From Pseudobutyrivibrio sp. (lineage in GTDB: Bacteria; Bacillota; Clostridia; Lachnospirales; Lachnospiraceae), in assembly GCF_015057185.1 (NCBI RefSeq), contig NZ_SVEV01000027.1:1-51977 (forward strand): DNA of 51,977 nucleotides. The letters run 5' to 3'. A program made the position numbers and the translations under genes. The notes under the pieces were generated by a model. That model was not told where the DNA came from. It saw nothing but the letters and a program-made list of their open reading frames with translations, and did not search any database. How positions within the stretch are numbered: position 1 is the first letter of the stretch; every line of letters begins with the position of its first letter. This document shows, in pieces, positions 14,962 through 30,568 of the stretch.

Positions 14962-15076
14962 TCCCCTTCTTCTCCTTCTGTAAAAATTCTCGGGCTCAAC
15001 TTGTGCAATATGCATAATGAATAGCCCTTTAATCTTTTCTTCTATAGTCATAATACACGACTGAGTATTTATTTAT

Positions 15077-16146: not shown

Positions 16147-17463
16147 CTATTCTGTAGGCGCTATTACCTCCTCTAATTTAACCTGAGCATCTGCCAAAAC
16201 ATCATCTATATTATTACCTTCAATAATGCTAAGAACTGCTTGGGACATTATCTCTCTGCACTCATAATGATATTCAGATTGCTCAACAAGTGGTACTTCC
16301 TGAGAGTACTCCACAATTATAGAATAAATTGGTTGTCCGTTAAAGTAGTCTACTCCTTGACTATAAACCTCTGACTCTGCTGCAGCCACACAAGTACCAA
16401 TAAGTCCTGCCTCTGTTAGTGCCTCATCATAGGTAATTGAATGACCATCAATTGCAGAATTTCCACCAAATGTATAGGCTAGAAAATCGTTTGCTACCAA
16501 AGAATTCTTGCAGTTTGTGGTTACACAAAGGGATGAACCGCCATTTGAAGAATATCCTGGTTCCCCTGAAAATGAAGGGGCTGTAGTTATCTCCCAATCT
16601 CCTGAATGGTCTGAAACCTGCTCCATTGAGCTAATGATCCAGTTTCCATCATAGACTCCTGCAAGCATATCATTTCCAATGGCATTATCAATATAGTCTG
16701 TCCAATCCTCTGCCAAATATAAAACGTGATTCTGCTGTAGCTTTACAATCATTGAAACAACATCACATAGAGTATGATTTCCTACGATGTATGGGCTTCC
16801 TCCTCTAAATGGAGACTCACCTTCTGCTTGAAGCATCATATAAATAAGGTCGTTGTCCTTACCGATGGCGCCGATTAGGTACTTACCTGTTTTCTCGTAA
16901 ACATCCTGTCCTATCTCGGCAAATCTGTCCCAGGTGATACCTGTCACATCATCCATTGTGTAACCGCATTCCGCTAAAATATCAGTTCTATAAGCAAAAA
17001 CCGATGTTCCTGCATCCACTGGAACCCCGTAGTGCACGTCATCCACTATAGAATAGGAAACCTTGTCCTGACCTAAATTGTCCCAATCTATAATTGCGCT
17101 TTCAACTGGGACAAAGGCACTTGGATAGTTTTTTACGTATTTTTGGATATTGTGATCCTGAAACAGCACTAAATCTGGAAGGCTTTTATAAACCTTTTTC
17201 TCGTCTGCCGCCACTATTTCGTCCTCGATGGCATCCGAGTTTCCCATGTCTATTATTTCTAATTTAAAATCAGGGTTAACCTGCTGATAATCCTGCTCTG
17301 CTGCCTTCAAAGCTGGAATGTTAAAATTAGAATCCCAGGCCCACACAGTAAGGGTTGTTTTCATCTCACTTATTGGCATAGGAGCTTCTTCTTTCTCACC
17401 ACAACCAATTAATGAAGAAGCAACTAGGATTGACATGGCCAATGCTTTTAACTTTTTTCTCAT
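16147..17463 (-). CDS. Second sugar-binding lipoprotein, paralogue, without its own permeases
   Basis: 438 residues from ATG 17463, behind GGGAGAG; the ORF could open at an earlier ATG 17487 but the signal sequence starts here. Lipobox SSLIGC. It aligns with the protein at 13606-14961 along its whole length (TVWAWDSNFNIPALKAAEQ; PVDAGTSVFAYRTDILAE; YSQGVDYFNGQPIYS). No permease follows; the next gene is the AraC regulator. It may feed the same permeases with a different ligand, or sense extracellular sugar. Signal peptide and sorting predict outer-face membrane anchoring. Confidence 0.85.
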   Translation of the reverse strand: MRKKLKALAMSILVASSLIGCGEKEEAPMPISEMKTTLTVWAWDSNFNIPALKAAEQDYQQVNPDFKLEIIDMGNSDAIEDEIVAADEKKVYKSLPDLVLFQDHNIQKYVKNYPSAFVPVESAIIDWDNLGQDKVSYSIVDDVHYGVPVDAGTSVFAYRTDILAECGYTMDDVTGITWDRFAEIGQDVYEKTGKYLIGAIGKDNDLIYMMLQAEGESPFRGGSPYIVGNHTLCDVVSMIVKLQQNHVLYLAEDWTDYIDNAIGNDMLAGVYDGNWIISSMEQVSDHSGDWEITTAPSFSGEPGYSSNGGSSLCVTTNCKNSLVANDFLAYTFGGNSAIDGHSITYDEALTEAGLIGTCVAAAESEVYSQGVDYFNGQPIYSIIVEYSQEVPLVEQSEYHYECREIMSQAVLSIIEGNNIDDVLADAQVKLEEVIAPTE

Positions 17464-17549
17464 TAAACTCTCCCATACATCTTGCAATTGTAAATACTTA
17501 TTAGTTACATTTAACCACTTTTCTGCAAATGATGCAATTTAAATAATAA

Positions 17550-17580
17550 AAATTGACACTGAAGCTTAGTTCAGTGTCAA
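17550..17580 (-). terminator. Terminator after the small four-helix membrane protein
   Basis: Minus strand TTGACACTGA-loop-TTCAGTGTCAA followed by TTTTTA; ends the long operon that starts at 26716. Confidence 0.8.
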
Positions 17581-17599
17581 ATATAACCAAAGTATTAAA

Positions 17600-18067
17600 T
17601 TATTGAGCACAGGCTTTGCCTGCTGCACCTTGCGCAATTGGAATAAATATCATAGCAACTACGAAGCACAAGATGTACATAGGAATTAATGTTCCTAGGA
17701 ATGCAAATAAAAATGCTGGGAAAGGAGCTCCACCAAATACTTGCACATTTACGAAGTTCATAACCAAACCAATGATGATTACGAAAATTAAAACTACTGG
17801 CACATTTCCTAGGATTCTTCCTGGAACGCTCTCTGGGTCTACTTTAAATAACTTAGGAAAATTGATGGCTATAAGAGGTATTGGGAATACTGCATTTACA
17901 ATACATGCAAACACGAATCCCAAGAGTATATTTACCAGCAAAGCTGGTGTAAGTAGCTTATCTGAGTTTCCAGAAAATATCATTCCTCCCACTGACATTG
18001 CTGTTGCAAGCGGAATATTCATTACTAAATTGAACACAACAAAAAATTTTAAACTTGGTTTTTCCAT
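17600..18067 (-). CDS. Small membrane protein, four predicted helices
   Basis: 155 residues, ATG 18067 with site AAAGGAGAG. Four hydrophobic helices (about 10-30, 42-70, 88-112, 118-145), ending in a short tail with one Cys. I do not recognise the family with confidence. It is the last gene of the chalcone isomerase operon, separated from the flavoprotein gene by about 120 nt containing a GC-rich hairpin. A transport accessory or an integral redox partner of the flavoprotein are both possible. Confidence 0.6.
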   Translation of the reverse strand: MEKPSLKFFVVFNLVMNIPLATAMSVGGMIFSGNSDKLLTPALLVNILLGFVFACIVNAVFPIPLIAINFPKLFKVDPESVPGRILGNVPVVLIFVIIIGLVMNFVNVQVFGGAPFPAFLFAFLGTLIPMYILCFVVAMIFIPIAQGAAGKACAQ

Positions 18068-18124
18068 TTTTATTCTCTCCTTTTATATGACAGTTATTAG
18101 CTGTTCTATTACCAGAGAGAATTA

Positions 18125-18146
18125 GGCCCCTAACGGATTAGGGGCC
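18125..18146 (-). terminator. GC-rich hairpin before the last operon gene
   Basis: Stem GGCCCCTAA-CGGA-TTAGGGGCC, 9 bp, perfect. On the minus strand it is followed by TAATTCTCTC, not a strong T-run, so partial termination or mRNA processing is more likely than a full stop. Confidence 0.5.
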
Positions 18147-18188
18147 CAGTTCCCCCGATTTTATTAATTACCCTCAAATGGGTCCCTT

Positions 18189-19133
18189 CTAATTTGCCTT
18201 GCTAGGTGAAGGTGTTGGTGCACATACAGCTGTATAGTGCTCCTTACGAGCCTTGAACTCTGGATCCTTGAAGAGGTTCATAAGGCGTCCCTCGTTCTGG
18301 AAGATATCATCGCCGTGAAGCTTCTTACCAGAAATTGTGTCATGAGCCTTGTGCTCATCTGCTGGATCAAACTTGAACTTAAATGCTCCATCAACAACCT
18401 CAAGTGTACCGTGAAGACCGCAAAGCTCGCACTCACACTCTGTTGTTCCTGGGAAGATGTAGAAGTTGTTACCGTTACAGTGTGGGCAAGCACCTGGTGT
18501 ACCCATCCACTTAGCATTCTCAACATCCTTTGCAGCCTCAACAAGGTTACGTCCGATTTGTCTCATACGCTCTACCTTGTCATCCTGCATGATAACGTCC
18601 TTGCACCATGAGAAGTACTCGTTGTTAATTACTGTCCAAGCTGGGCTCATAGCAAGCATAGCGTGATCTGTCTCAACACGAACTGCCCAGTCAGAACCAC
18701 CGATACCTACAAATGAAATTGCCTTCTTCTTTAAGTACTTAGGATCAAGACCATCCTTGCCCTGCTCCTTAAGCTTTCCATCAAGCATGTGAAGCATTCC
18801 GATATCGTGTCCAGGTCCCATACGGTCACAAAGTACGTGGAATAATCCAGATCCGCCTGACTCATAGATTGGGTCTACAACAAGTACACCGTCAGCTTCA
18901 GCCATCTTATCAAAGAGTGCTGCATAATCATCCTTCTGAGAGCAAACCATTCCCTTACCCATTACAAGGCTTCTTGAGCAAGCTACGCAACCTGTGCAGT
19001 ATTTGATATCCCAATCAAAAACGTGGATAAACTCAATCTCAGCTCCCATTTCTTTTGCTGCCTCAAGGGCAACGCGGCACATAGTATCGTTGTTACCGTT
19101 TCTTGTACCACAAGACAAACCTAAAATTTTCAT
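18189..19133 (-). CDS. Flavodoxin-fold FMN reductase-like flavoprotein with C-terminal zinc/iron knuckles
   Basis: 314 residues, ATG 19133 behind TAGGAGG. The N-terminal half is the FMN-binding fold of the NADPH-dependent FMN reductase/iron-sulfur flavoprotein group (MKILGLSCGTRNGNND phosphate loop; CTGCVACSRS at about 47-56; DPIYESGGSG). Residues 219-244 add a Cys-rich knuckle (CPHC ... CECELC). It is 88 nt after the transporter gene in the chalcone isomerase operon. By context it is a candidate ene-reductase for flavones or chalcones; gut bacterial flavone reductase is, as I remember, a flavodoxin-type enzyme of similar size. Activity is inferred only. Confidence 0.8.
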   Translation of the reverse strand: MKILGLSCGTRNGNNDTMCRVALEAAKEMGAEIEFIHVFDWDIKYCTGCVACSRSLVMGKGMVCSQKDDYAALFDKMAEADGVLVVDPIYESGGSGLFHVLCDRMGPGHDIGMLHMLDGKLKEQGKDGLDPKYLKKKAISFVGIGGSDWAVRVETDHAMLAMSPAWTVINNEYFSWCKDVIMQDDKVERMRQIGRNLVEAAKDVENAKWMGTPGACPHCNGNNFYIFPGTTECECELCGLHGTLEVVDGAFKFKFDPADEHKAHDTISGKKLHGDDIFQNEGRLMNLFKDPEFKARKEHYTAVCAPTPSPSKAN

Positions 19134-19221
19134 AAATTAAAAACCTCCTAAATTTAATTTGTCTTAGTTATTAGATTTCCTTTATTAATAATTGGTTGTT
19201 CCTGAAACAAATGACTTATTA

Positions 19222-20442
19222 CTAATTATTTTTTGCTTCATTTGGTCTCTTAATTAAGAGAGTACAACCAATAGCTAAGGCTATAGCTACAATCATAATT
19301 ACAAATATGGTCATGTATGTACCTTGCTTGTCGTAAATTACACCAGCTGCAGTTCCTCCGAAGGAAGCCAAAAGCAAATTCAGGTTTATGATAGAGAAAT
19401 TGACTGGGTAATTTTTAACCCCATAAAAATCCATAATAAAAGCTGAATTGGTAGGTGTCACACCGCCGTATGACAGTCCAAAGAATATAAATCCTAGTAC
19501 CACAAGTGCCAAGCTGCCAGCATTTAATGCTGCTATGTTAATCAAAACTGAAACCAAATAAAGTCCACAGTTGAGTAACATAGTTTTTTTCTGACCAAGT
19601 CTATCGTAGAGTCCGCCGAAGATTACTCTACCGATTCCATTGAATACTGAAATCAAACCTACGATAGTTGCAATTGTCCCTGCTGCGAGGTTGGGCGATG
19701 TCTCTGTTACAATGCCACTAGCCTGTGCTACCAATGCCAACGCTGCTGCACTAAGTAAAATCGCATATACAAAATATAACCAGAAGGATGCTTTGCTAAT
19801 CATCTGGGCAGTCTTAAAGTCAGCGCCTTTTGCAGCCTTATTTGCTGTTTCTGCTGGAACATATTCTCGTATCTGCTCCTCTGTTGGCTTTTTAATAAAA
19901 AGACCACCAATTAAAATTACTGCACATACGATAACTCCAAGAGCTTTGAACTCCTGTCTCCAGCTAAAGCTGCCTAAAAATCCTGCATAAACTTTTCCGA
20001 TTATGAAGGCTCCGATTCCAAATCCCATAAGTAGGATTCCTGAAATCAAGCCCTTCTTGTCAGGGAACCATTTTGTTACAGAGCCCATAACTGTGTTATA
20101 GGCAAATCCTGCTCCTAGTCCTGCAAGAACACCAAAGCCAAGATATAGCTGTGTGATATTTGTCATTGAGCTAACAATGATAAATCCCACTAAGAAAAGC
20201 ACTGCAGAAATTCCGCAAATCACCCATTCCTTCACTTTTCCTGCTAGTAGGCCAGCTACTAGTCCACCGATGCAGAAGAAGCTCATTGCAAGGGTGAATG
20301 TGAGTGAAAGTGACCCCTTGCTCCAATTTGGATATTCTGCTGCAAATGGACTAGAAAGTACTGACCATGCATATATAAGTCCAGCAAATAGAAGTATTAA
20401 AACACCCCAGATAGCTTGCGCCCATCTATTTGTTTTTTTCAT
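19222..20442 (-). CDS. MFS transporter, oxalate/formate antiporter (OFA) type
   Basis: 406 residues, twelve hydrophobic helices, ATG 20442 after TAGGAGG. The sequence has the OFA pattern (WAQAIWGVLILLFAGLIYAWSV at the first helix; GGLYDRLGQKK loop). OFA carriers exchange small carboxylates, and homologues occur in aromatic-compound clusters. It follows butyrate kinase by 21 nt. In this operon it could import a phenolic or flavonoid, or export the carboxylic acid end product. Confidence 0.85.
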   Translation of the reverse strand: MKKTNRWAQAIWGVLILLFAGLIYAWSVLSSPFAAEYPNWSKGSLSLTFTLAMSFFCIGGLVAGLLAGKVKEWVICGISAVLFLVGFIIVSSMTNITQLYLGFGVLAGLGAGFAYNTVMGSVTKWFPDKKGLISGILLMGFGIGAFIIGKVYAGFLGSFSWRQEFKALGVIVCAVILIGGLFIKKPTEEQIREYVPAETANKAAKGADFKTAQMISKASFWLYFVYAILLSAAALALVAQASGIVTETSPNLAAGTIATIVGLISVFNGIGRVIFGGLYDRLGQKKTMLLNCGLYLVSVLINIAALNAGSLALVVLGFIFFGLSYGGVTPTNSAFIMDFYGVKNYPVNFSIINLNLLLASFGGTAAGVIYDKQGTYMTIFVIMIVAIALAIGCTLLIKRPNEAKNN

Positions 20443-20463
20443 TAAAGCCTCCTATTTCCCGTC

Positions 20464-21531
20464 TTATTCAAAAATTCTGGCTTTTTCTTCGCCGCGGATA
20501 ACACGAAGTGTTCCCTCAGCAAGTGCCTTCATTTCGTTTTCACCTGGGATAATCTCTACAGGTGCGATAAAGCCTGCATGCTTCTTGATTGAATCAACGA
20601 ACATATCAGAGTAAGCAAGTCCTCCTGTAAGTACGATGTAATCAACCTTTCCGTCAACAGATGGTGCGATTCTTGCGATTGTCTTTGCTGTGTTAAGAGC
20701 CATTGCTTCATATAAAAGTGCTGCCTCTTCATTTCCATCAACTACCATCTGCTCAACTTCGCGCATGTCTGCTGTGCCAAAGTAAGAAATCATTCCACCG
20801 CTACGCTGTAGCTTCTTCATCATCTCTTCCTTTGTGTACTCACCGCTGTAGCACATGTCTACGAGAGCATAAGTTGGAAGTCCACCTGCACGCTCTGGAG
20901 CGAATGTTCCAATTTCGTCATTGAAGAAATCAATAATCTGTCCATTAGAGTGAAGGTTTACTGTAATACCGCCGCCTAAGTGTGCAACGATAATGTTTAC
21001 CTTGTTGTAGTCAATGCCCTTGTCCTTGCAAAGCTTTAATGCTGCCGCACGAGTATTAAGGTTGTGACCCTTTGCAGGAACTCTAATGCCCTTGATACCA
21101 GTGATTTTGTTGACCTCAGTCATCTCATCTACTGTGATTGCGTCGTAAATATAAGCCTTTACACCGATTTGCTGAGCAATTGAATACGCAATACCTGCAC
21201 CAAGATTACTTGCGTGCTGGTCTACTGGATGAAACTGTAAAGTCTCAACCATTTTTTCATTAACTTCATAGGCTCCAGTCTTTACTGGAGGAAGTGCTCC
21301 TCCACGTCCTACAACAGCTCCAAGGCTATCAACCTTGTCACCGTGCTTTGTAAGACATGCGAGAATCAAATCCTTTCTCATATCCAGCTGATCGTAGATT
21401 GTAGGATAAGCCTTGAGCTCATCTAAGCTATGTGAAATGCTTTCAATCCACTGCTGCTCCTCGCCCTGATAAATAGCGATTTTTGTAGAAGTAGAACCTG
21501 GGTTAATGACTAATATTTTTTCATTTGCCAT
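20464..21531 (-). CDS. buk: Butyrate kinase
   Basis: 355 residues, the standard length. Converts butyryl phosphate (or branched acyl phosphate) plus ADP to acid plus ATP. ASKHA signature NPGSTSTKIAIYQGE at the N-terminus, HLGGGITV (about 184) and VDYIVLTGGLAYS near residue 300. ATG 21531 lies 11 nt after the stop of the phosphate acyltransferase gene. With the two preceding modules it forms a substrate-level phosphorylation line: 2-oxoacid to acyl-CoA to acyl phosphate to acid. Confidence 0.93.
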   Translation of the reverse strand: MANEKILVINPGSTSTKIAIYQGEEQQWIESISHSLDELKAYPTIYDQLDMRKDLILACLTKHGDKVDSLGAVVGRGGALPPVKTGAYEVNEKMVETLQFHPVDQHASNLGAGIAYSIAQQIGVKAYIYDAITVDEMTEVNKITGIKGIRVPAKGHNLNTRAAALKLCKDKGIDYNKVNIIVAHLGGGITVNLHSNGQIIDFFNDEIGTFAPERAGGLPTYALVDMCYSGEYTKEEMMKKLQRSGGMISYFGTADMREVEQMVVDGNEEAALLYEAMALNTAKTIARIAPSVDGKVDYIVLTGGLAYSDMFVDSIKKHAGFIAPVEIIPGENEMKALAEGTLRVIRGEEKARIFE

Positions 21532-21542
21532 AGGATTCTCCT

Positions 21543-22454
21543 TTATTTAACTGCTGCTGCAGATACAACGATTGAGAGGTACTTCTCCTCTGCTGTAGAG
21601 CTGCGAGATACCATAACGATTGGGCACTTTGCGCCAACGATAAAGCCAGCCATTTTTGCACCGCAGCTGATTGCATACATCTTACCCATGATGTTTCCTG
21701 CATGGATATTTGGTGCAACAAGCACGTCTGGATCACCAGCAATCTTAGACTTAAGTCCCTTGAATTCAGCAAGATCCTTTCTCATAACGCAGTCGTACTG
21801 GATAGGTCCTTCTACGATACAGTTTGTAATCTCGCCTCTTTCGTTCATTGCCTGAAGCTCTGCTGCATCAACAGACTCAGGCATCTTTGGATTAACCTTC
21901 TCAACACAAGCAAGTACACCAACCTTTGGGCAGTCATAACCCATAGCGCAAAGTGTATCTACTGTGTTCTGGATAATATCCTTCTTCTGCATAAGGTCTG
22001 GATATGTAACCATTCCACCGTCAACAGGAAGAATTACCTTGTGATATGTAGGAACCTCGAACATTGTAAAGTGTGACATGAGTCTTCCCTGTCCAAGTCC
22101 GTATTCCTTGTTAACAACTTCCTTGAGGATAATCTTTGTATCTACCTTACCCTTCATAAGGAAATCAGCTTTTCCTGAGCTAACAAGCTTTACTGCCTTT
22201 TCGCAGGCCTGCTGTAAATCCTCAGCTGGTACGTCGATAATGTTTTCCTCAGGAATCTCTTCCTTAAGGTCTGCTAAAATCTCAGTAATTATCTTTTTAT
22301 CGCCAACTAAGATTGGCTCGATGATGCCTTCTCTTCTAGCGTTTACAACTGCCTCAAGAGTATGATCATCATTTGCACAAGCTACAGCCATAATCTTCTT
22401 TGAAGGTGCGCCTTTAACCTTTGCAATCAATTCATCAAAATTGTGAAATACCAT
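21543..22454 (-). CDS. ptb: Phosphate butyryltransferase
   Basis: 303 residues. Exchanges the CoA of butyryl-CoA or branched-chain acyl-CoA for phosphate. Typical Ptb features: N-terminal 'MVFHNFDELI', VACANDDHTLEAV, PILVGDKKII, and C-terminal PIVMVSRSSTAEEKYLSI. ATG 22454 behind GAAAGGA, 18 nt after the oxidoreductase gamma subunit. Context with the 2-oxoacid oxidoreductase favours substrates such as isobutyryl or isovaleryl-CoA, or an aromatic acyl-CoA, besides butyryl-CoA. Confidence 0.92.
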   Translation of the reverse strand: MVFHNFDELIAKVKGAPSKKIMAVACANDDHTLEAVVNARREGIIEPILVGDKKIITEILADLKEEIPEENIIDVPAEDLQQACEKAVKLVSSGKADFLMKGKVDTKIILKEVVNKEYGLGQGRLMSHFTMFEVPTYHKVILPVDGGMVTYPDLMQKKDIIQNTVDTLCAMGYDCPKVGVLACVEKVNPKMPESVDAAELQAMNERGEITNCIVEGPIQYDCVMRKDLAEFKGLKSKIAGDPDVLVAPNIHAGNIMGKMYAISCGAKMAGFIVGAKCPIVMVSRSSTAEEKYLSIVVSAAAVK

Positions 22455-22472
22455 TTGATTTTCCTTTCAAAA

Positions 22473-23036
22473 CTAGTTCTTGCCGTTCTTTACCTTGAAC
22501 TCGCGTCCAATTTCAAGTCCCTTATCAAATGCTGCCTTGTTAAGAGGTAAAAGCTTTGGCTTGCTACCAAGCTTATGCTCTACTGTGCCCCAAACGATTT
22601 CTGGAGCAACAACCTCTGTATATCCAACGTAAACACCAAGCATGATTACGTTAAGAACCTTTGAGTTACCCATCTCAAGAGCAAGCTCTGTTACAGGTGC
22701 CTCAATAAGCTCAATATCATCTCTTTCAATCTTGTCTTTTACGATTGAGCTGTTGATGAAAAGTCTTCCGCCTGGCTTTAATGTACCGATGAATTTATTT
22801 AAAGATGGACCATTCATAACAATAAGGTCATCCATAACATCTCCAAGTGGTGCGCCAATCATTTCATCTGAAATAACTACGTAGCAGTTAGCTGTACCAC
22901 CACGCTGCTCTGCGCCGTATGAAGGGAAGAATGTTACATTCTTATCTGTAGAATCACATGTTGCAGAAGCAAGGAACTTTCCAAGGGTCATAACACCCTG
23001 TCCACCGAAGCCGGCTACACATATATTTGTTTCCAT
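22473..23036 (-). CDS. 2-oxoacid:ferredoxin oxidoreductase, gamma subunit
   Basis: 187 residues. N-terminal GFGGQGVMTLGKFLA and SYGAEQRGGTANC are the family signatures for the gamma subunit, which contacts CoA. Start overlaps the stop of the beta subunit by 1 nt (23036), so the two are translationally coupled. Part of the ferredoxin-alpha-beta-gamma set 22473-25101, matching VOR/KOR-type enzymes rather than the single-chain pyruvate enzyme. Confidence 0.9.
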   Translation of the reverse strand: METNICVAGFGGQGVMTLGKFLASATCDSTDKNVTFFPSYGAEQRGGTANCYVVISDEMIGAPLGDVMDDLIVMNGPSLNKFIGTLKPGGRLFINSSIVKDKIERDDIELIEAPVTELALEMGNSKVLNVIMLGVYVGYTEVVAPEIVWGTVEHKLGSKPKLLPLNKAAFDKGLEIGREFKVKNGKN

Positions 23037-23791
23037 TATTTCTCCTCCATTCCGCGATCTCTGATAACACCAAGTGGGTATTCCTTAAGCATGTTCTCCT
23101 CGAGGAAATCAAGTGCCTTAAGTGAATCAAGTCCCCAGTTTGTTGGGCAGCTTGTTACGATTTCTACAAGAGAGAATCCCTTGCCAGCAAGCTGATACTC
23201 GAATGCCTTTCTGATTGCCTTCTTTGTCTTCATAACATTTGCTGGTGTGTTACAGCTTGTTCTCTCAAGATAGTAAGGTGCTGTAAGCTGGTTAAGTGTC
23301 TCGCAAACATGCATTGGATAACCATGCTCCTCTGCAATACGTCCCTTTGGTGCTGTTGTTGCCTTCATTCCAAAAAGAGTTGTAGGTGCAAGCTGACCAC
23401 CTGTCATACCGTAAATACCATTGTTTACGAAGATAACTGTGAAGTTCTCGCCACGGTTTGCAGCTGACATTGTCTCAGCAAGACCGATTGATGCAAGGTC
23501 ACCATCACCCTGATATGTGAAATAAAGTGTATCTGGATTTGCTCTCTTCATACCTGTTGCAACTGCACAAGCTCTACCATGTGGAGCTGTGATGTTATCG
23601 TATGCCATGTAGTCCATCTGAAGACCACAGCATCCGATACCTAAAACTGCAGCTGTCTTATCAATGATGCCCATCTCGTCAATAACTTCACCGATGAGCT
23701 TCATGATTGAAGAATGCATACATCCTGGACAAAATCCTGAAACCTTGTCCTCCTGAATTGTTTTTGTTCTTCCGTATAATAATTCTGCCAT
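23036..23791 (-). CDS. 2-oxoacid:ferredoxin oxidoreductase, beta (thiamine diphosphate) subunit
   Basis: 251 residues, ATG 23791, one base after the alpha gene. FCPGCMHSSIMKL supplies an Fe-S ligand context; GDGDLASIG with VNNGIYGMTGGQ is the thiamine diphosphate/Mg motif. Decarboxylates the 2-oxoacid and passes electrons to the ferredoxin subunit. Substrate cannot be set from sequence; branched-chain 2-oxoacids, 2-oxoglutarate or arylpyruvates are possible. Confidence 0.92.
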   Translation of the reverse strand: MAELLYGRTKTIQEDKVSGFCPGCMHSSIMKLIGEVIDEMGIIDKTAAVLGIGCCGLQMDYMAYDNITAPHGRACAVATGMKRANPDTLYFTYQGDGDLASIGLAETMSAANRGENFTVIFVNNGIYGMTGGQLAPTTLFGMKATTAPKGRIAEEHGYPMHVCETLNQLTAPYYLERTSCNTPANVMKTKKAIRKAFEYQLAGKGFSLVEIVTSCPTNWGLDSLKALDFLEENMLKEYPLGVIRDRGMEEK

Positions 23792-23792
23792 G

Positions 23793-24881
23793 TTAAGCCT
23801 CCTGTCCTGCTAATTTCATTACAGCCTCAAGCACGGCCTCTCTTGACATTACGTTACCGCCTGAGCATAAGCACTTCTCAACTGGGCAACGACGTCTAAC
23901 TACTGCCTCTACATCTGTTGCATACTGAGCTGGGATTGACATCTCAACATCAAGAATTGCCTTTACCTTGCTATAGTCAAGCTTCTCAAAAGCTTCTGTT
24001 GGGAATGGATTAAGAGTGATTGGACGAATAAGACCAACCTTGATTCCCTGCTTTCTCAAGATATCAACTGAAGACTTAGCGATACGGCCTGAAATACCAT
24101 AAGCTGTAAGAATGATTTCAGCATCCTCTACCATGTATTCCTCAACCATAACGTCATTTTCTTTCCATGACTCATAAAGTGCTGCAGCCTCTTCGTTACA
24201 CTTCTGCATAACTGTTGTCTGCCACTGACCTGGCTGGATCCAAGAGCGGTTAGCATAGTCAAGCTTGTGACCTACACATGCCCACTTCTTCTTTTCTTCT
24301 CTAATCTTTTGAACCTCTTCCTCAGGCATCATCTCTGGAAGCTCAACTGGCTCCATCATTGTTGCGATAACACCGTCTGCAAGAATGTGAACTGGGTTTC
24401 TATCTCTATCAGCAAGCTCGAAAGCCTTAACTGTAAGGTCTACTGCCTCCTGAACTGTTGAAGGTGCAAGTACCATCATCTGGAAACCACCATTACCAGC
24501 TGCCTTTGTTGCCTCAAAATAATCCATCTGTGCTGGCTGGATTGAACCTACTCCAGGGCCCCCTCGTGCAAAGTTTGTATACACAATTGGAATACGAGCT
24601 GATGCACAATATGAGATACCCTCACTCTTAAGTGCGATTCCTGGTGAAGATGAAGATGTCATTGCTCTGACACCAGCAGAAGCTGCACCGTAAACCATAT
24701 TGATGGATGCTACTTCTGACTCGCCCTGTACGAAATTTCCACCAACCTCTGGAAGTCTTCTTGAGAAATACTCTGGGACTTCATTTTGAGGTGTGATAGG
24801 ATAACCTGCAAAAAAACGACAGCCGGCACGAACTGCTGCTTCAGCTACAGCCTCGCTGCCCTTCATAAATGTTCTAGCCAT
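23793..24881 (-). CDS. 2-oxoacid:ferredoxin oxidoreductase, alpha subunit (VorB/KorA type)
   Basis: 362 residues, ATG 24881, 4 nt after the ferredoxin gene. Motifs: AGCRFFAGYPITPQNEVPE, VQGESEVASINMVYGA, TSSSSPGIALKSEG, and NFARGGPGVGSIQP; the C-terminal domain (AEIILTAYGISGRIAKSS) is the usual transketolase C-terminal-like part. Length fits the four-subunit VOR/KOR class. Cytosolic; the complex makes acyl-CoA, CO2 and reduced ferredoxin, which supplies Ptb and Buk downstream. Confidence 0.92.
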   Translation of the reverse strand: MARTFMKGSEAVAEAAVRAGCRFFAGYPITPQNEVPEYFSRRLPEVGGNFVQGESEVASINMVYGAASAGVRAMTSSSSPGIALKSEGISYCASARIPIVYTNFARGGPGVGSIQPAQMDYFEATKAAGNGGFQMMVLAPSTVQEAVDLTVKAFELADRDRNPVHILADGVIATMMEPVELPEMMPEEEVQKIREEKKKWACVGHKLDYANRSWIQPGQWQTTVMQKCNEEAAALYESWKENDVMVEEYMVEDAEIILTAYGISGRIAKSSVDILRKQGIKVGLIRPITLNPFPTEAFEKLDYSKVKAILDVEMSIPAQYATDVEAVVRRRCPVEKCLCSGGNVMSREAVLEAVMKLAGQEA

Positions 24882-24885
24882 TTAT

Positions 24886-25101
24886 CTAATCCTCCTTATA
24901 AATCTCAATTGCCCCATCTGGACAGATACGTCCACAAGTTAGACAACCTACGCAATCTTCTTGTCTTGCAGCTACAACATACTCGTAGCCCTTGGCATTT
25001 ACTTCAGTTCCGATCTCAAGAACATTCTTGGGACAAAACTTGATACAGTAACCACAGCTTTTGCATCGCTGTGCAACTACATTAATGCTAAATTTTGCCA
25101 T
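24886..25101 (-). CDS. 2-oxoacid:ferredoxin oxidoreductase, delta (2x[4Fe-4S] ferredoxin) subunit
   Basis: 71 residues with two classical clusters, CKSCGYCIKFCP and CVGCLTCGRICP. ATG 25101 follows AGGAGG. It is the electron-carrying subunit for the oxidoreductase encoded just after it. Confidence 0.92.
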   Translation of the reverse strand: MAKFSINVVAQRCKSCGYCIKFCPKNVLEIGTEVNAKGYEYVVAARQEDCVGCLTCGRICPDGAIEIYKED

Positions 25102-25137
25102 TATATGACCTCCTTTTACTCTTGTATATCCATAAAC

Positions 25138-25836
25138 TCAATCCCTAAGCCATTCATAGGTCAGGTACAAGTGTATAGGCATAATCTTTTCTACCTTGAA
25201 ATTCTTTTTAACCGACTCAACCAAGCCCTCGTGAACGCAAACCATCTCAATTTCCTTATGGTCTGAGACGATTTTTTCCATATTGCCTGCTCCCTCAACC
25301 ATTTCATCAATAGTTGTTGTGATGCCGGCATTTGGATTATCAATAAAGTGAATATCCTCTAGGCTTAAGTGTGAAACTGTAAGAATTTCTGATAAGAATC
25401 TATCTATATGGTTAATGTCCTGGCAGAATGGTCTGAAATAATTCAAAACATATAAGACACATAAGGATTCCTTTTTTGCTCGAAGCATGAAGCCTCCGAT
25501 TGCTCTGGCACCTATGTCATCTCCGCCAACGTCCATAACCACGATACTTTCTGGATCCGCTAACAGCTCGCTTACACCACCCACTACTGTAGGCGCGTCA
25601 TAAAACTGCTCCTCGTAGTGAATGGCAATATCTGCAAGCTCTTCGCTTTCTAGCAAATCTCTTGATCTAAAAAGCGGTTTTGTCATATCCATGTCAAAGA
25701 GATGTACCTTTTTATCAGATTCCTTGGCTAAGTACTTTGCCAGATTTAGTGAAATTTCACTTTTTCCGCAGCCAGCACCGCCAATCAATATGAAATTTGT
25801 TTTTCCTGCCTTTAAAGCATCATTTATCAACTTCAT
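25138..25836 (-). CDS. P-loop ATPase/GTPase of unknown role
   Basis: 232 residues. Walker A GGAGCGKS (19-26); a second acidic strand VVMDVGGDDIG resembles the Walker B/switch region of SIMIBI-type ATPases (MinD, CooC, CobQ relatives). No membrane segment. It lies between the chalcone isomerase and the ferredoxin subunit in one operon. It may help mature or insert a cofactor or cluster into one of the operon enzymes; this is inference from fold class only. Confidence 0.75.
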   Translation of the reverse strand: MKLINDALKAGKTNFILIGGAGCGKSEISLNLAKYLAKESDKKVHLFDMDMTKPLFRSRDLLESEELADIAIHYEEQFYDAPTVVGGVSELLADPESIVVMDVGGDDIGARAIGGFMLRAKKESLCVLYVLNYFRPFCQDINHIDRFLSEILTVSHLSLEDIHFIDNPNAGITTTIDEMVEGAGNMEKIVSDHKEIEMVCVHEGLVESVKKNFKVEKIMPIHLYLTYEWLRD

Positions 25837-25864
25837 TTCAATTACATCTCCTTGTTATCCACAA

Positions 25865-26716
25865 TTAACGCATTGTTATATATCCCTTGTACTGTCTTAA
25901 GTTGTCAGATGTACATCTGTCACCTAAGAATACTGATGCGATGTTGTGCTGAGGCTTTAAGAATGGGAACTCATCCTGCTGTGCCCATGAAGGCTTTGTA
26001 AGATGTGTCTTTGAAAGATTTACACAAAGGTCATACCACTCCTCTGGTCCTTCAAACCAAACCTCGCAAACTCTATCGAACTGTGCTTCTGGAGCACCAT
26101 AATTCACAACTACCTTGCTACTTACAACTCTGTTTACTCTTACTGATCCTGTAAGGAATGGAACTACTTCCTCATGGAACCATCTCTCGCCCTCTTCCTT
26201 GCCGCACTCCTCTGGATACTTGATAAGGAACTGCCAACGGAAGTTTGGTCCATCCTCAAGTGTTCTTTCCTTACCCTTGAAGTCCTCTTCCCAGTTAAGT
26301 GGGACGAATGAGAAAATAAATGGTGGCATATCTCCGCCGCCTGCTGCACGTCCTGCATCACCAGACTCAGCATTGTTATGTACTGTTGAGCTGTTTACAT
26401 CTGGAATGCATCCCTGCCAACGAAGAACATCCATAGGCATGTACTCGCAGAAAATGTTGTTTGCCATCTCAGGAAGATGCTCATTTACTAACCAGTAATG
26501 CTCAGTAAGCTGCATCGCTCTAGCACCAAATCTGTCTCCCTCTGGTGGTGTTGGATAGCACTGATAAAATGCATATTTAGTTACGTATGGGCTGAACTTG
26601 CTGATGCTCTCTGGCACGTGATGATAGTAAAGCCAATGCTCAAGCTTTGGTCTGTACTCTTCCTTTGCAAGACCTACATAGATGAGGCTTCGCATGATAT
26701 TAAACTCGTATGACAT
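25865..26716 (-). CDS. chi: Bacterial chalcone isomerase
   Basis: 283 residues, the length I remember for the Eubacterium ramulus enzyme. It shares blocks I recall from it: MRSLIYV, YRPKL, YVTKYAFY, GDRFG, MQLTEH, MDVL-WQG, KPSWAQQD-FPFLKP and the C-terminal GYITMR. That enzyme is a two-domain ferredoxin-like fold unrelated to plant chalcone isomerase; it opens flavanones such as naringenin to chalcones and also acts on taxifolin. The catalytic His33 is present (HHVPES). The equivalent of the second catalytic residue, Asp79, appears to be Glu79 here. ATG 26716 behind AAAGGAGGG. First gene of an operon running to 17600. Enoate reductase and phloretin hydrolase are not in the window. Confidence 0.85.
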   Translation of the reverse strand: MSYEFNIMRSLIYVGLAKEEYRPKLEHWLYYHHVPESISKFSPYVTKYAFYQCYPTPPEGDRFGARAMQLTEHYWLVNEHLPEMANNIFCEYMPMDVLRWQGCIPDVNSSTVHNNAESGDAGRAAGGGDMPPFIFSFVPLNWEEDFKGKERTLEDGPNFRWQFLIKYPEECGKEEGERWFHEEVVPFLTGSVRVNRVVSSKVVVNYGAPEAQFDRVCEVWFEGPEEWYDLCVNLSKTHLTKPSWAQQDEFPFLKPQHNIASVFLGDRCTSDNLRQYKGYITMR

Positions 26717-26782
26717 AAATTACCCTCCTTTAAATTCATATGAGATACGACTTTGACTATTTTTTAACAAAAAAAGATACAA

Positions 26783-26800
26783 AGTTAGATTAACCTAACT
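26783..26800. promoter_or_regulatory. Palindromic operator overlapping the chi promoter
   Basis: AGTTAGATTAACCTAACT is an 18-bp near-perfect palindrome. On the minus strand it overlaps the -10 of a candidate promoter (TTTGCA, 17-bp spacer, GTTAAT). It is a plausible binding site for the LysR protein encoded at 28463 or for another repressor. Confidence 0.45.
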
Positions 26801-26891
26801 GACTTTCTTTGTGCAAATTGACCGTGGCTAAATCATAGCATCATCTTTTCTCGATAAAAAATATCAATATCCAATGGATTTAATAACAAAT

Positions 26892-26920
26892 TTGATATAG
26901 ATAAATTCAAACTTTAATAT
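26892..26920 (+). promoter_or_regulatory. Promoter of the LVIVD beta-propeller gene
   Basis: TTGATA (26892-26897), exactly 17 bp, TAATAT (26915-26920). The leader of about 80 nt contains a TTGG-N8-CCAA dyad at 26930-26945 and a stem-loop GAGCAC/GTGCTC at 26963-26981, followed by the strong site AAAGGAGG. Confidence 0.55.
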
Positions 26921-27005
26921 TGGACGTTTTTACCAAATGGGTCTTACAATCTGATTACGAACGAGCACTGCAATTGTGCTCAGCTATGAAAAAGGAGGTT
27001 TTTAA

Positions 27006-28379
27006 ATGAGCGATAAGTTTTACGCTAAGAGTCCCGGCAACGAAGGCTATATAAAGAATATGGAAGTCGTTGGCTATCACGACGCTGATAACCACTATCT
27101 CTTCCAGTCTCAGTTATATAAGACACAAGATGGACGTTATTACCTTTACGGTGGATGCTTCTACGGATATGGTGTTGAAATTATAGAGGTTACTGACCCG
27201 GCAAATCCACGCCACGTACAGTACATGCCAGTTATGGATCCTGAGGTTTACCCATACATGTCTACACCAAAGGTACAGATTGCCGATGATTTAATGATTG
27301 TTTCTAATGGAAACTGTCTTGAATTTTTACATGGTCCTGCACCAGAGAAGTACACTCCAGCTCCAGGTGGAGTTCATATCTTCTCATTAAAGGAAGACCC
27401 TGAGCACCCTAAGAAATTGTCTTTCTGGGCAACTGGCGACACTGATAACCCAGGAGCTGGTGTTCACAGATTTACTTACAATGGTGGAAAATACTTACAT
27501 CTTTCTGCTACTGCTGTTGGTTTCAAGGACTTTATTTACAGAATTGTAGATATTTCTGACCCTACTAACCCACATGAGGTTGGTCGCTGGTGGAATCCAG
27601 GTCAGTTCTTTGGAAATCAGACAAAGAAGACAAGAGATAAGGAATGGAACGGTTGGCAGGGCTACAATACTTACCCTGGATTCGTACACTTCCCATATGT
27701 TGACGGAGATACAGCTTACCTTAGCTGTGCTGGCGCAGGCTTCAAGATTCTTGATGTTTCTAATCCTGAATGGCCACAGGTTATCGGAGAAGCAAAAATG
27801 ACTCCACCATTTGCTACTAAATTCGGTGGTGCACTTTGCCACACATTCATGCCAATCCACGGTACAAAATACGCTATTGGTATGCAGGAAGGTGAACGTC
27901 AGTGGACTTACAACAAAAATGATTTTGATAAGTTCGGCGTTCAGGCTATGTGCGGTATTGAGATGTTTGATATCTCAGACCCTGAGGATCCAGTACTTAT
28001 TTCAGTACTTCCTTACCCAGAAGTTCCTGAGAACTTCCCTTACAAGAACTTTAATGATTTAGGATATGGTTACCCTACATCATTTGGTCCTCACAACTTA
28101 CATGAACCAATGACAGGAAAGCCTTGGCTTGAGGACAGAAGCGATCGTGCTTACGACTGCTACTTCCACGCTGGACTTCGTGTTTACGATATTTCAGACC
28201 CATATGTTCCAAAGGAGATAGCATACTTTATTCCTCCAAATCCAGAGAAGCTTTGCTTCGACGTAAAGATGCCTAACAAGCCTCTTGGAACAGCCGAGGA
28301 TCTTGTCGTTGATGATAGAGGTTACATCTATATGAACGCTATGCATGATGGAGTTTACATCCTTAAGTGTCTCGTATAG
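27006..28379 (+). CDS. Cytosolic LVIVD-repeat beta-propeller protein
   Basis: 457 residues, ATG 27006 behind AAAGGAGG; no signal peptide. At least five blades show the LVIVD pattern '[IVL]-x-[IVF]-x-D-[IV]-S-[DN]-P' near residues 58, 179, 247, 319 and 392. A histidine sits in a comparable place ahead of most blades: His154 (GVHRF), His228 (FVHFP), His279 (LCHTF), His363 (GPHNLHEP), His388 and His447 (NAMHDG). A ring of His on a propeller axis often binds a metal. Divergent from the chalcone isomerase operon with a shared 289-nt control region, so it is probably part of the same pathway, perhaps as an enzyme. Codon choice and ribosome site suggest high expression. Confidence 0.75.
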   Translation: MSDKFYAKSPGNEGYIKNMEVVGYHDADNHYLFQSQLYKTQDGRYYLYGGCFYGYGVEIIEVTDPANPRHVQYMPVMDPEVYPYMSTPKVQIADDLMIVSNGNCLEFLHGPAPEKYTPAPGGVHIFSLKEDPEHPKKLSFWATGDTDNPGAGVHRFTYNGGKYLHLSATAVGFKDFIYRIVDISDPTNPHEVGRWWNPGQFFGNQTKKTRDKEWNGWQGYNTYPGFVHFPYVDGDTAYLSCAGAGFKILDVSNPEWPQVIGEAKMTPPFATKFGGALCHTFMPIHGTKYAIGMQEGERQWTYNKNDFDKFGVQAMCGIEMFDISDPEDPVLISVLPYPEVPENFPYKNFNDLGYGYPTSFGPHNLHEPMTGKPWLEDRSDRAYDCYFHAGLRVYDISDPYVPKEIAYFIPPNPEKLCFDVKMPNKPLGTAEDLVVDDRGYIYMNAMHDGVYILKCLV

Positions 28380-28414
28380 TTTGTATATTACAATTATTTC
28401 TAATTTCTCTCTTA

Positions 28415-28448
28415 AAGAAAGCTGCCACGTGACAGCTTTCTTTTTTTT
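28415..28448 (+). terminator. Terminator after the beta-propeller gene
   Basis: GAAAGCTG-CCACGTGA-CAGCTTTC followed by nine T. The -35 element of the LysR gene (GTGACA, 28429-28434) is embedded in this hairpin. Confidence 0.85.
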
Positions 28449-28456
28449 GCTATAAT
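28429..28456 (+). promoter_or_regulatory. Promoter giving a leaderless LysR message
   Basis: GTGACA (28429-28434), 16-bp spacer, perfect TATAAT (28451-28456). Only six bases separate TATAAT from the ATG at 28463, so the normal start point is the A of ATG. There is no ribosome site. Confidence 0.6.
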
Positions 28457-28462
28457 AGGGGC

Positions 28463-29338
28463 ATGACTGATAAACAAATTGAATGTTTCTTAGAAACAGG
28501 TAAATATCAAAGCTTTACAAAAGCTGCACAAAACTTATATCTTCCACAGCCTGCTGTCAGCCGATATATTTCTGCCCTAGAACAGGAGCTAGGTGTGTCT
28601 CTTTTCATTAGAGAAAATAGCAGAAATATATCCCTTTCAGAGGAGGGAACCATCTATTTCAATTTCTTCCAGCGCTACCATGCTGAGTTTAGAAATATTA
28701 AAAAGATGCTTACAAACACCAGCTCAACCCTTAGAATAGGCTACAATATCGGCTGGAATGTATCCTCTTTTTTGCCTGCAATTGTAGATGAATGTAGAAA
28801 AGAGAATCCTGATTTGGAGATTTCCTTTGAATGTCTGGGCTTTAGAGACCTGGTTCAGGCCATAGAGGACAAACATTTGGATGCGATTATCACAACAGAT
28901 GATTATTTAGAGGGACGAGCAGATTTCGTCAAGTATCATTTTACTAGTATTTCTCGTATTATTGCCTACTCTGACCTGCTTCCAAATCATGAGAGCATCA
29001 CCTCCCCTAAGGATTTTGAGGAGTACACCTTCTACATGATTGACGACCCTAAGGTTGGTGAGCTATGTCAGGATATTGAGCTTATGTTCCGCCCTTATGG
29101 CTTCATTCCTAAGTTTTTTGCAGTTCCTAATATTAATTCAGTTTTTGCTTCAGTGGAGAATGGTCTGGGAGTAGCTGTACTAGATTCCTGGTATCAGGGC
29201 ATTCATCATCCGGGAATGCATATTTTTGATTTGCATGAGGCACTGCCAATTTCCATCGCATGGTCTAGAAATGCTATCTCTTCACCAGTAGATATGCTTT
29301 ATAAGAAAATAAATGAATTCTTTAAAAATGGGATGTAG
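28463..29338 (+). CDS. LysR-family transcriptional regulator
   Basis: 291 residues. Winged helix-turn-helix at residues 1-60 (CFLETGKYQSFTKAAQNLYLPQPAVSRYIS) and a periplasmic-binding-like effector domain after residue 85. Located next to the beta-propeller gene and 1.7 kb from the chi promoter, it is the likely regulator of the divergent region, with an aromatic or flavonoid ligand as inference. Its ATG follows the -10 box at leaderless distance. Confidence 0.9.
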   Translation: MTDKQIECFLETGKYQSFTKAAQNLYLPQPAVSRYISALEQELGVSLFIRENSRNISLSEEGTIYFNFFQRYHAEFRNIKKMLTNTSSTLRIGYNIGWNVSSFLPAIVDECRKENPDLEISFECLGFRDLVQAIEDKHLDAIITTDDYLEGRADFVKYHFTSISRIIAYSDLLPNHESITSPKDFEEYTFYMIDDPKVGELCQDIELMFRPYGFIPKFFAVPNINSVFASVENGLGVAVLDSWYQGIHHPGMHIFDLHEALPISIAWSRNAISSPVDMLYKKINEFFKNGM

Positions 29339-29358
29339 GCTAACCTACATCCCATATA
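29330..29358. terminator. Bidirectional terminator between lysR-type and aminotransferase genes
   Basis: GGGATGTAGG-CTAA-CCTACATCCC, a perfect 10-bp stem overlapping the last bases and stop of the LysR gene, followed by AT-rich sequence. Confidence 0.7.
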
Positions 29359-29360
29359 TT

Positions 29361-30551
29361 TTATAATCCGCAGTCCTTTGCCAATGCTTCAAATGCTTGC
29401 AATGAACGCTTAATCATCTCGTAATCTACGCAATATGCAATTCTTACGTAGCCTGGGCAACCGAAGGTCTTGGTTGAAACCAGGATAATATGATGCTTCT
29501 TGGCAAGAGCTACAAACTCTGCCTCATCCTCAAATGGCGACTGAACAAGCAAGTAGAAAGCGCCCTGTGGCTTCACCACATTGAATCCAAGCTCTGTCAG
29601 CTTGTCATAGAGCAATCTTCTATTTTTATCGTAGAATTCCAAATCCACATCTACATCAAGACATCTAGACACAACAAGCTGGAAAAGTGATGGTGCATTG
29701 ATGTAACCAATACATCTGTTGGCTACTGCCATTGCATTAATCATCTCGTCATAGCAATCCATGTTTTTGGAAAGTGCCATGTATCCGATACGCTCGCCAG
29801 GAAGTGAAAGTGTCTTACTGAATGAGTAAATGTAAATGCTGTTTTTGATAATTGATGGAATGTATGGAACCACATCATTATCATATACAAGCTCTCTGTA
29901 TGGCTCGTCTGCAAGCACATAAATCGGATGACCTACTCTCTTTTCAGCCTTCTCTATGATTTCTGCAAGCTTTTTAAGTGTCTCCTCTGGGAAAATTCTA
30001 CCTGAAGGATTGTTTGGATTATTAACGATAATGCAACGTGTCTTTTCGTTGATAAGCTCATCTAAAGCATCTAGATTCAAATCAAAGTCGTCCATTTTTG
30101 CTGGAACAACCACAAGATTACCGCCATAATTTGCTACGTAGCTTCGATATTCTCCAAAATAAGGGGCAAATGCGATTACTTCGTCCTCGTATCCAAGTAA
30201 AGCTCTAAAAATACAGTTCATGGCGCCTGCTGCACCAACAGTCATGATAACGTCCTCTGGTCCGTAGCTCATGCCAAACTTTTTATTTAGGCTTGCCGCA
30301 ACGTTTTGTCTAACCTCATCAAAACCAGCATTTTTCATATATCCATGAATGTATGAATCTGGCTTCTCTGCCAAAATATCCTTGATTGACTGAGTGACCT
30401 TTTCAGGAACTGGAGCCGCTGGATTTCCCAAACTAAAGTCGTATACGTTCTCAGCTCCTACTTCCTTTGCAAGCTGCAATCCCTCCTCAAAAAGCTTTCT
30501 GATAGTAGAGCTACCTGCTACGAGAGTTTCCATGTTTTTTGAAATAACCAT
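29361..30551 (-). CDS. PLP-dependent class I/II aminotransferase
   Basis: 396 residues from ATG 30551; an upstream GTG at 30572 lacks a ribosome site whereas ATG 30551 follows AAGGAG. Fold type I signature residues are intact: NNPNNPSG, ADEPYREL, and the PLP lysine in SFSKTLSLPGERIGY. It resembles aspartate/tyrosine-type aminotransferases common in Clostridia ('pyridoxal phosphate-dependent aminotransferase'). The substrate is not clear. The upstream PAS-GAF gene ends inside its leader (30569), so they may be co-transcribed. Confidence 0.9.
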   Translation of the reverse strand: MVISKNMETLVAGSSTIRKLFEEGLQLAKEVGAENVYDFSLGNPAAPVPEKVTQSIKDILAEKPDSYIHGYMKNAGFDEVRQNVAASLNKKFGMSYGPEDVIMTVGAAGAMNCIFRALLGYEDEVIAFAPYFGEYRSYVANYGGNLVVVPAKMDDFDLNLDALDELINEKTRCIIVNNPNNPSGRIFPEETLKKLAEIIEKAEKRVGHPIYVLADEPYRELVYDNDVVPYIPSIIKNSIYIYSFSKTLSLPGERIGYMALSKNMDCYDEMINAMAVANRCIGYINAPSLFQLVVSRCLDVDVDLEFYDKNRRLLYDKLTELGFNVVKPQGAFYLLVQSPFEDEAEFVALAKKHHIILVSTKTFGCPGYVRIAYCVDYEMIKRSLQAFEALAKDCGL

Positions 30552-30568
30552 TTTGCCTATTCTCTCCT

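Follow-up and report, generated by a model that had tools for sequence, protein, structure and literature searches.

Here, we report a gene block of a gut or rumen bacterium, a Pseudobutyrivibrio sp. (assembly GCF_015057185.1, contig NZ_SVEV01000027.1; the whole 51,977-nucleotide stretch that was analysed is called the window) with which the cell quite probably breaks down flavonols and flavanonols anaerobically while conserving energy. The block combines a flavone/flavonol reductase (FLR) homologue, a bacterial chalcone isomerase (CHI), an LVIVD-repeat beta-propeller protein (PROP), a VOR-type 2-oxoacid:ferredoxin oxidoreductase, and homologues of phosphate butyryltransferase (Ptb) and butyrate kinase (Buk). 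It looks like an apparently complete anaerobic route from quercetin-type pigments to phenylacetic acids and ATP, i.e., a predicted catabolic operon in which members of known enzyme families surround a single enzyme proposed as new. On balance, we also favor the more specific proposal that PROP represents a new enzyme class, which would cleave auronols or the corresponding diketone to phloroglucinol and an arylpyruvate and thereby supply the missing flavonol step, and that the operon is a self-contained, redox-neutral fermentation yielding one ATP per flavonol. Quercetin and other flavonols rank among the most abundant flavonoids of the diet (PMC7862272), and several gut and rumen bacteria are reported to form 3,4-dihydroxyphenylacetate (PMC11170127, PMC8780962); for alphitonin, cleavage by an enzyme as yet unknown is expected (PMC12203004, 2025). 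Specific candidate genes are named here for alphitonin cleavage and for the steps from arylpyruvate to arylacetate, and the proposed route would explain a possible energy gain of the cell.

The block lies within contig 61 of the 3.25-Mb genome, which is 99.83% complete. Eleven co-directional genes run on the minus strand from 26716 down to 17600, with CHI first, a small membrane protein last, and gaps of at most 121 bp. This is the arrangement that an initial annotation, made from the DNA letters alone, had described; all of the genes it named were found where it placed them, and its identities for the oxidoreductase subunits, Ptb, Buk, and the major facilitator superfamily (MFS) transporter are borne out by Pfam and NCBIfam matches. 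It had also proposed a control region shared by CHI, the propeller, and a LysR gene. PROP is indeed divergent from CHI, but LysR lies 83 bp downstream of PROP and does not flank the 289-bp region. The features are as follows.

25865..26716, minus strand: CHI, the operon's first gene (PF18232, E = 5.5e-54)
25138..25836, minus strand: CbiA/ParA-like P-loop ATPase, accessory gene of VOR operons (PF01656)
24886..25101, minus strand: 2 x [4Fe-4S] ferredoxin subunit of the 2-oxoacid:ferredoxin oxidoreductase (Fer4 Pfam match; eight Cys in two cluster motifs)
23793..24881, minus strand: VorB-type alpha subunit, POR_N + PFOR_II (NF005507 VorB, 438.6 bits, cut-off 399)
23036..23791, minus strand: thiamine pyrophosphate-binding beta subunit (PF02775)
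22473..23036, minus strand: gamma subunit, POR (PF01558)
21543..22454, minus strand: Ptb-like protein (PF01515; TIGR02706, 309.4 bits, cut-off of 410.5 not reached)
20464..21531, minus strand: Buk-like protein (TIGR02707, 418.8 bits, cut-off of 289.1 exceeded)
19222..20442, minus strand: OFA/monocarboxylate-type MFS transporter (PF07690; NF049980, 257.9 bits, cut-off of 320 not reached)
18189..19133, minus strand: FLR homologue (PDB 7d38, E = 1.8e-91; PF03358)
17600..18067, minus strand: small membrane protein (homologues at 9 of the 80 CHI loci described below)
17553..17580, minus strand: terminator-like stem-loop at the operon end (11-pair stem, T-rich tail)
26717..27005, no strand: divergent control region between CHI and PROP, 289 bp, from the gene coordinates
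27006..28379, plus strand: PROP, LVIVD-repeat beta-propeller of 457 residues (PF08309)
28463..29338, plus strand: LysR-type regulator (PF00126, PF03466)

The 283-residue protein that the initial annotation took for a chalcone isomerase is one: it scores 181 bits against PF18232 (cut-off 25), and its residues 3-283 align to the Eubacterium ramulus CHI (PDB 4d06/3zph) with E of about 1e-89 (phmmer). His33, His73, and Glu91 are invariant among 16 aligned sequences; in the E. ramulus enzyme His33 is catalytic, His73 and Glu91 are in the active site, and Asp36 polarises His33 (PMC9694015). Position 36 is Glu in the present protein. The E. ramulus CHI converts taxifolin to alphitonin, with a proposed di-keto tautomer on the way (PMC9694015), and the CHI studied here would likewise act as a flavanonol to auronol/diketone isomerase. 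The initial annotation had also listed a flavodoxin-fold flavoprotein; a flavoprotein it is, of the FMN-reductase fold (PF03358), and specifically an FLR homologue, which had been missed, with residues 1-307 of 314 matching PDB 7d38-7d3b at E = 1.8e-91. The FLR of Flavonifractor plautii reduces the C2=C3 bond of flavones, is active on five flavonols including quercetin, and needs its C-terminal tail for activity (PMC7862272, where structure 7D38 is cited once). Taken together, FLR and CHI support flavonols and flavanonols as the likely substrates. A second, diverged CHI-like family (L020-L025) is found in several CHI genomes, with N-terminal model E values from about 2e-7 to 5e-4; three of its six proteins were aligned to the CHI of the window and are about 23% identical to it.

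From these sequences, and from reactions known for relatives of FLR, CHI, and the arylpyruvate-converting trio, we infer the substrates in this organism and the reaction of PROP as follows. FLR would reduce the C2=C3 bond of a flavonol (e.g., quercetin) to give the flavanonol, and CHI would open the ring to a chalcone/diketone that closes to the auronol alphitonin. PROP would then hydrolyse the bond joining ring A to the carbonyl carbon C-4, releasing phloroglucinol and 3,4-dihydroxyphenylpyruvate; the VOR-type oxidoreductase would turn this arylpyruvate into arylacetyl-CoA, CO2, and reduced ferredoxin; the Ptb-like enzyme would form arylacetyl phosphate from arylacetyl-CoA; and the Buk-like enzyme would finally yield 3,4-dihydroxyphenylacetate and ATP. 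The sum would be quercetin + 2 H2O + ADP + Pi -> phloroglucinol + dihydroxyphenylacetate + CO2 + ATP, of which the C, H, and O of the organic part balance by computation. The quercetin route would be redox-neutral because the single reduction (FLR) pays for the single oxidation (VOR). The printed physiology fits such a route. C. decagia converts quercetin, taxifolin, and alphitonin to 3,4-dihydroxyphenylacetate, with dihydroxyphenylpyruvate as a hypothetical intermediate (PMC11170127, 2024), and C. scindens, for which a CHI gene of the E. ramulus type was looked for and not found in the same paper, makes phenyllactate instead. C. butyricum, with no CHI gene by its authors' search, leaves flavonols uncleaved and goes no further than taxifolin dihydrochalcone (PMC11868195). 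In the rumen, 3,4-dihydroxyphenylacetate is formed from quercetin, and the cleavage to the acid and phloroglucinol has been attributed to Butyrivibrio and Clostridium (PMC8780962).

The evidence that these genes belong together is comparative. A scan of named genome contigs gave 195 CHI relatives, the best 80 of which were kept (80 loci, 74 genomes); flanks of up to 10 kb, many shortened by contig ends, were searched for matches of at least 80 bits. Please note that the linkage counts include close relatives, that several genomes are incomplete metagenome-assembled genomes (MAGs), and that records very near our own genome may be missing. Near CHI at these best 80 loci we found FLR-like genes 62 times, PROP 45, LysR 30, Ptb and Buk 26 each, VorB, ferredoxin, and ATPase 21 each, and MFS 17; at an identity of at least 40% the numbers are 56 for FLR, 45 for PROP, 16 for LysR, 26 for Ptb, 24 for Buk, 21 each for VorB and ferredoxin, 19 for the ATPase, and 10 for MFS. 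Six of the 62 FLR-like matches fall below 40% identity (lowest 27%) and may be other flavoproteins. Gene orders and strands vary among Lachnospiraceae, Flavonifractor, an Enterococcaceae MAG, Clostridium drakei, C. muellerianum, and Oscillospiraceae. Among 20 further stretches of the family, two (L029 and L041) hold CHI with VOR and Buk in still other orders, the former additionally with PROP, Ptb, FLR, and MFS; a third (L026) has CHI with Buk, Ptb, and FLR. In the eight nearest named loci (L069-L076; Oribacterium, Pseudobutyrivibrio, Butyrivibrio), identity is 86-94% for CHI and 86-99% for PROP, and the gene order starting with PROP and CHI holds up to the contig limits. Linkage that recurs in shuffled orders is not expected by chance, so the module is real. 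The concern that the genes might lie scattered in relatives is thus answered across many lineages and gene orders, with the qualification that PROP and the VOR genes stand away from CHI in some genomes, including E. ramulus; one genome (G219) has a single PROP, which points away from a second VOR operon that has itself diverged (L223). The initial annotation had linked flavonoid turnover to the reduction of ferredoxin and to ATP made from an acyl phosphate; in this comparative light, that prediction is supported. It had not recognised what the propeller might do.

Two REPLACEMENTS suggest what the chemistry may be, namely IOR for VOR at CHI loci and PROP and PhyL, the latter a 206-residue protein and short relative of phloretin/2,4-diacetylphloroglucinol (DAPG) hydrolase. 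The exclusion counts for both pairs used matches of at least 60 bits. A 2-oxoacid:ferredoxin oxidoreductase is present at 29 of the 80 CHI loci, 21 times of the VOR type and 8 times of the IOR type, never both, the IOR-type gene occupying the place of VOR; the one IorA at a CHI locus that was scanned reaches 709 bits with TIGR03336, above the cut-off of 650.9. Arylpyruvates are the described substrates of IORs, and a VOR-like, Ptb-like, and Buk-like trio (HpdDEFG-J-K) has been reconstituted to convert hydroxyphenylpyruvate to hydroxyphenylacetate (PMC13285125). The block likewise holds four separate oxidoreductase subunits with Ptb-like and Buk-like genes in one cluster. Buk is above and Ptb below the respective equivalog cut-off. 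The trio is best read as acting on a B-ring-derived arylpyruvate, not butyrate, with the Ptb-like protein as a putative phosphate arylacetyltransferase and the Buk-like protein as a putative arylacetate kinase. Butyrate production was considered as the role of Ptb and Buk and was set aside, since Ptb is under its equivalog cut-off and the oxidoreductase of the trio can give way to IOR.

The genome itself contains one VorB-type gene at 100% identity, the only other match being weak (31% over residues 2-170), so the oxidoreductase is not a redundant copy. A VorB homologue of at least 72% identity was found in 24 of the 33 CHI genomes searched (75-76% in E. ramulus, 77% in F. plautii). Five of the 33, with IOR at the CHI locus, have no VorB at that level, and in the remaining four the best VorB reaches 66% (G219), 62% (G444), and 49% (G438), with none in G439. 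A VorB tree of 43 sequences (from 52, near duplicates dropped, one group of stretches not included) places the CHI-type VorBs, CHI-linked or not, in one 32-row clade with support of 100/100; among 14 other VORs of the same genome set, 11 fall outside this clade and three inside. The VOR operon of F. plautii (ATPase-Fd-VorBAC-Ptb-Buk) is on another contig than CHI, and for the VOR of E. ramulus no Ptb or Buk match was found within the fetched stretches. For placing the C. drakei HpdE beside the VorB of the window, no fetched contig was recognisable as an hpd cluster, two of them breaking inside a VorB-like gene. The CbiA-like ATPase was matched at all 21 VOR-bearing CHI loci and adjoins other VOR operons too (27-39% identity); it was rejected as a flavonoid-specific gene because it accompanies VOR operons not linked to CHI. 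The genomes of L083 (G438) and L087 (G439) have CHI, FLR, and PROP, with VorB of at least 50% identity and an IOR at the CHI locus both absent; as a guess, they might reduce the arylpyruvate to phenyllactates instead.

PROP follows CHI across genomes. Its presence was read from the locus at 45 of the 80 CHI loci and from a genome-wide search for the other 35 (32 genomes, 25 of which carry PROP elsewhere), so that 67 of the 74 genomes have PROP and the other seven have PhyL. In a family sample of 397 genomes, PROP (E <= 1e-30) was matched in 14 of 14 CHI genomes and in 1 of 383 others (Fisher 7e-25, phylogeny ignored), the lone CHI-less match (G065) being weak (1.4e-34); in a class sample it was matched in 4 of 6 CHI genomes and in 0 of 385 others (Fisher 2e-8, phylogeny ignored). 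The only further genome of this genus in the sample (G153) gave no CHI, PROP, VorB-type, or PhyL match, and because it has none of the four the block is patchy. The structural model of PROP (predicted local distance difference test, pLDDT, 86.5) finds as its best Foldseek match a propeller phosphotriesterase (5hrm, E = 1.8e-16, TM about 0.6). H154, H279, H363, E295, E297, and R298 are invariant, and these residues appear catalytic rather than structural. The proposed function is that of an auronol/diketone C-C hydrolase; if so, the step would be analogous, although unrelated in protein, to that of phloretin hydrolase.

PhyL was searched genome-wide in those 32 genomes and in 20 others. In the 32, it is present in 7 of 7 without PROP vs 5 of 25 with PROP; over both searches, PhyL at E <= 1e-50 is found in 8 of 8 PROP-less CHI genomes vs 5 of 38 with PROP (Fisher 5e-6, phylogeny ignored), the 38 being 25 + 17 less 4 repeats with identical match coordinates. 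A prediction made in advance was borne out, i.e., the PROP-less CHI genome G605 of the class sample has PhyL. In G605 and G667, both PROP-less, PhyL is present close to CHI, and 0 of the 17 CHI and PROP genomes of the same search have PhyL (E <= 1e-50); G605 is, by its identical match coordinates, an Alkalibacter genome already counted as G417, so only G667 is new, and its CHI match is weak (6e-15). Within the 80 CHI loci PROP and PhyL never stand together; in C. puniceum (G398) they adjoin, elsewhere on the contig than CHI. A sequence search of the PDB with a PhyL profile gave no match. With the PhyL model, Foldseek ranks phloretin hydrolase 5xey third and PhlG 3hwp 24th, the list also holding other proteins that share this general fold. 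That a relative of acyl-phloroglucinol hydrolases replaces PROP suggests that PROP performs this type of hydrolysis. PhyL genes were seen at L110:5378-5998, L111:6404-7024, L133:8044-8664, L130:9347-9970, and in L146, and the family, tied to CHI, shows several invariant His and an HxxxE motif across six aligned sequences.

The flavonol route could also be right with the auronol cut in some other manner, by a side activity of FLR, spontaneously, or by a gene elsewhere, and with PROP in a supportive part, for instance in binding or sensing or in a hydrolysis that comes earlier. Propellers often serve as scaffolds for binding, VIA-align puts WD40 proteins at the top for PROP, and PROP is unlinked to CHI in some genomes. 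The presence of a C-C hydrolase relative in all eight PROP-less CHI genomes, the catalytic look of the invariant residues, and a propeller hydrolase as best Foldseek match speak against a merely supportive PROP, and we regard this version as unlikely. It is less probable still, in our view, that the C3-C4 bond of the diketone is cut to give a phloroglucinol carboxylate and an arylacetaldehyde, with the oxidoreductase acting on something else. Such a cut would be compatible with 3,4-dihydroxyphenylacetate as the known end product, and the available parts of the literature examined hold no proven intermediate; it would leave the oxidoreductase, Ptb, and Buk, whose linkage to CHI recurs, with no role, and we give it very little weight.

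A further explanation is that CHI serves the classical route from flavanone over dihydrochalcone to phloretin hydrolase (Phy), and that VOR, Ptb, and Buk form an adjoining operon for the fermentation of branched-chain or aromatic amino acids. VorB does exceed the cut-off of the 2-ketoisovalerate model, and such oxidoreductases beside Ptb/Buk homologues are common in amino-acid-fermenting anaerobes (PMC13285125, PMC13290082). The phloretin hydrolase family PF18089 has no match in our genome, for all its completeness, and none in 14 of 34 other distinct CHI genomes, whereas E. ramulus and F. plautii were matched as positive controls. (Thirty-five genomes were searched and 21 matched; two of these, G159 and G427, proved by identical coordinates to be one E. 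ramulus assembly, hence 20 of 34.) The classical Phy route is therefore unlikely to explain CHI in the unmatched genomes, and a phloretin-hydrolase route was rejected for our own. The amino acid operon, for its part, has to contend with IOR in place of VOR at eight CHI loci, with a linkage that recurs in different gene orders, and with the fact that no aminotransferase lies within the operon; we consider the explanation as a whole improbable. Since E. ramulus and F. plautii hold both Phy and PROP, flavones could there give arylpropionates through Phy and flavonols arylacetates through PROP, and the genomes lacking PF18089 should yield arylacetates only.

Several observations weigh against our preferred proposal, the flavonol pathway with PROP as C-C hydrolase, and it is fair to set them out together. 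PROP is known by fold and association only, and the protein nearest to it in fold is a phosphotriesterase rather than a hydrolase of C-C bonds. It is not beside CHI in E. ramulus, and 35 of the 80 CHI loci have no PROP nearby. PhyL matches PF18089 weakly (19.7 bits vs a cut-off of 22.7), its model is moderate (pLDDT 74), and 5 of the 38 genomes with CHI and PROP carry PhyL as well. As to the oxidoreductase, VorB scores as a 2-ketoisovalerate-type subunit (NF005507), two genomes with CHI and PROP (G438 and G439) among the 33 searched have no VorB in the range of the clade and no IOR at the CHI locus, and the VOR clade was looked for in one CHI-less genome, G153, which had no match.

Among known systems, the flavonoid degradation of E. 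ramulus and F. plautii (FLR, CHI, Fcr, Phy) shares FLR and CHI homologues with the block, and in F. plautii FLR (A4U99_05915) and CHI (A4U99_05920) have neighbouring locus numbers (PMC7862272). The differences are that our genome has no match to the phloretin hydrolase model and has VOR, Ptb, Buk, and the propeller co-located with CHI; the published schemes, in the parts available, name neither a propeller nor the oxidoreductase trio. The HpdDEFG-HpdJ-HpdK genes of C. scatologenes likewise place a four-subunit VOR-type oxidoreductase, a Ptb-like, and a Buk-like gene in one cluster (PMC13285125). Here, the trio is joined to FLR, CHI, and the propeller, and its substrate would derive from flavonol, not tyrosine; the words flavonoid, quercetin, and polyphenol do not occur in the main text of that paper. 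The PF18089 hydrolases of phloretin and DAPG share the proposed chemistry, acyl-phloroglucinol hydrolysis, and a distant relative of theirs replaces PROP in some CHI genomes, but the propeller has a different fold and no PF18089 match. The haloalkylphosphorus hydrolase of Sphingobium sp. TCM1 (5hrm) is, as PROP may be, a hydrolase built on a propeller; identity is 16%, the sequence likeness is at the level of the repeats only, and the substrate class differs. The initial annotation had stated that it knew of no description of this gene combination, and our search agrees: one open-access library, most of its matching papers being judged by their record and the opening of the abstract, gave no description of the cluster, of the propeller in flavonoid breakdown, or of the oxidoreductase trio in flavonol breakdown. 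Some of this neighbourhood may already have been depicted, given that a similar organisation in C. scatologenes is stated for the flavonoid genes known from F. plautii and E. ramulus (PMC10470551) and that the authors of the FLR study list four STRING partners of CHI. If the proposed route holds, the signature of CHI, propeller or PhyL, and oxidoreductase would predict whether a bacterium turns flavonoids into phenylacetates or into phenylpropionates.

Other features of the locus are of minor weight. Between FLR and the gene of the small membrane protein there is another terminator-like stem (18148-18123), so that this last gene may be partly separate from the operon; the protein itself matched no Pfam or NCBIfam family. 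Promoter-like matches in 17400-29400 were not above those in shuffled sequence (23 vs a mean of 27.4). The G+C content is 0.41-0.43 across 18-28 kb and again at 38-42 kb, most other 2-kb steps having 0.34-0.40. An aminotransferase gene at 29361-30572, convergent with LysR, was tried as an operon member and rejected, a match being near CHI at only 4 of the 80 loci (three at an identity of at least 40%); it is probably a chromosomal neighbour rather than part of the pathway. It adjoins the block in two Pseudobutyrivibrio loci (L070 and L071) at 85-86% identity. On the other side of the block, two similar lipoprotein genes of the solute-binding type (13606-15051 and 16147-17487) stand on either side of an AraC regulator (15192-16127), and two BPD_transp_1 permease genes (11815-13585) adjoin this group. 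Neither lipoprotein gene matches Pfam at 0.01, and one has weak NCBIfam sugar-binding matches.

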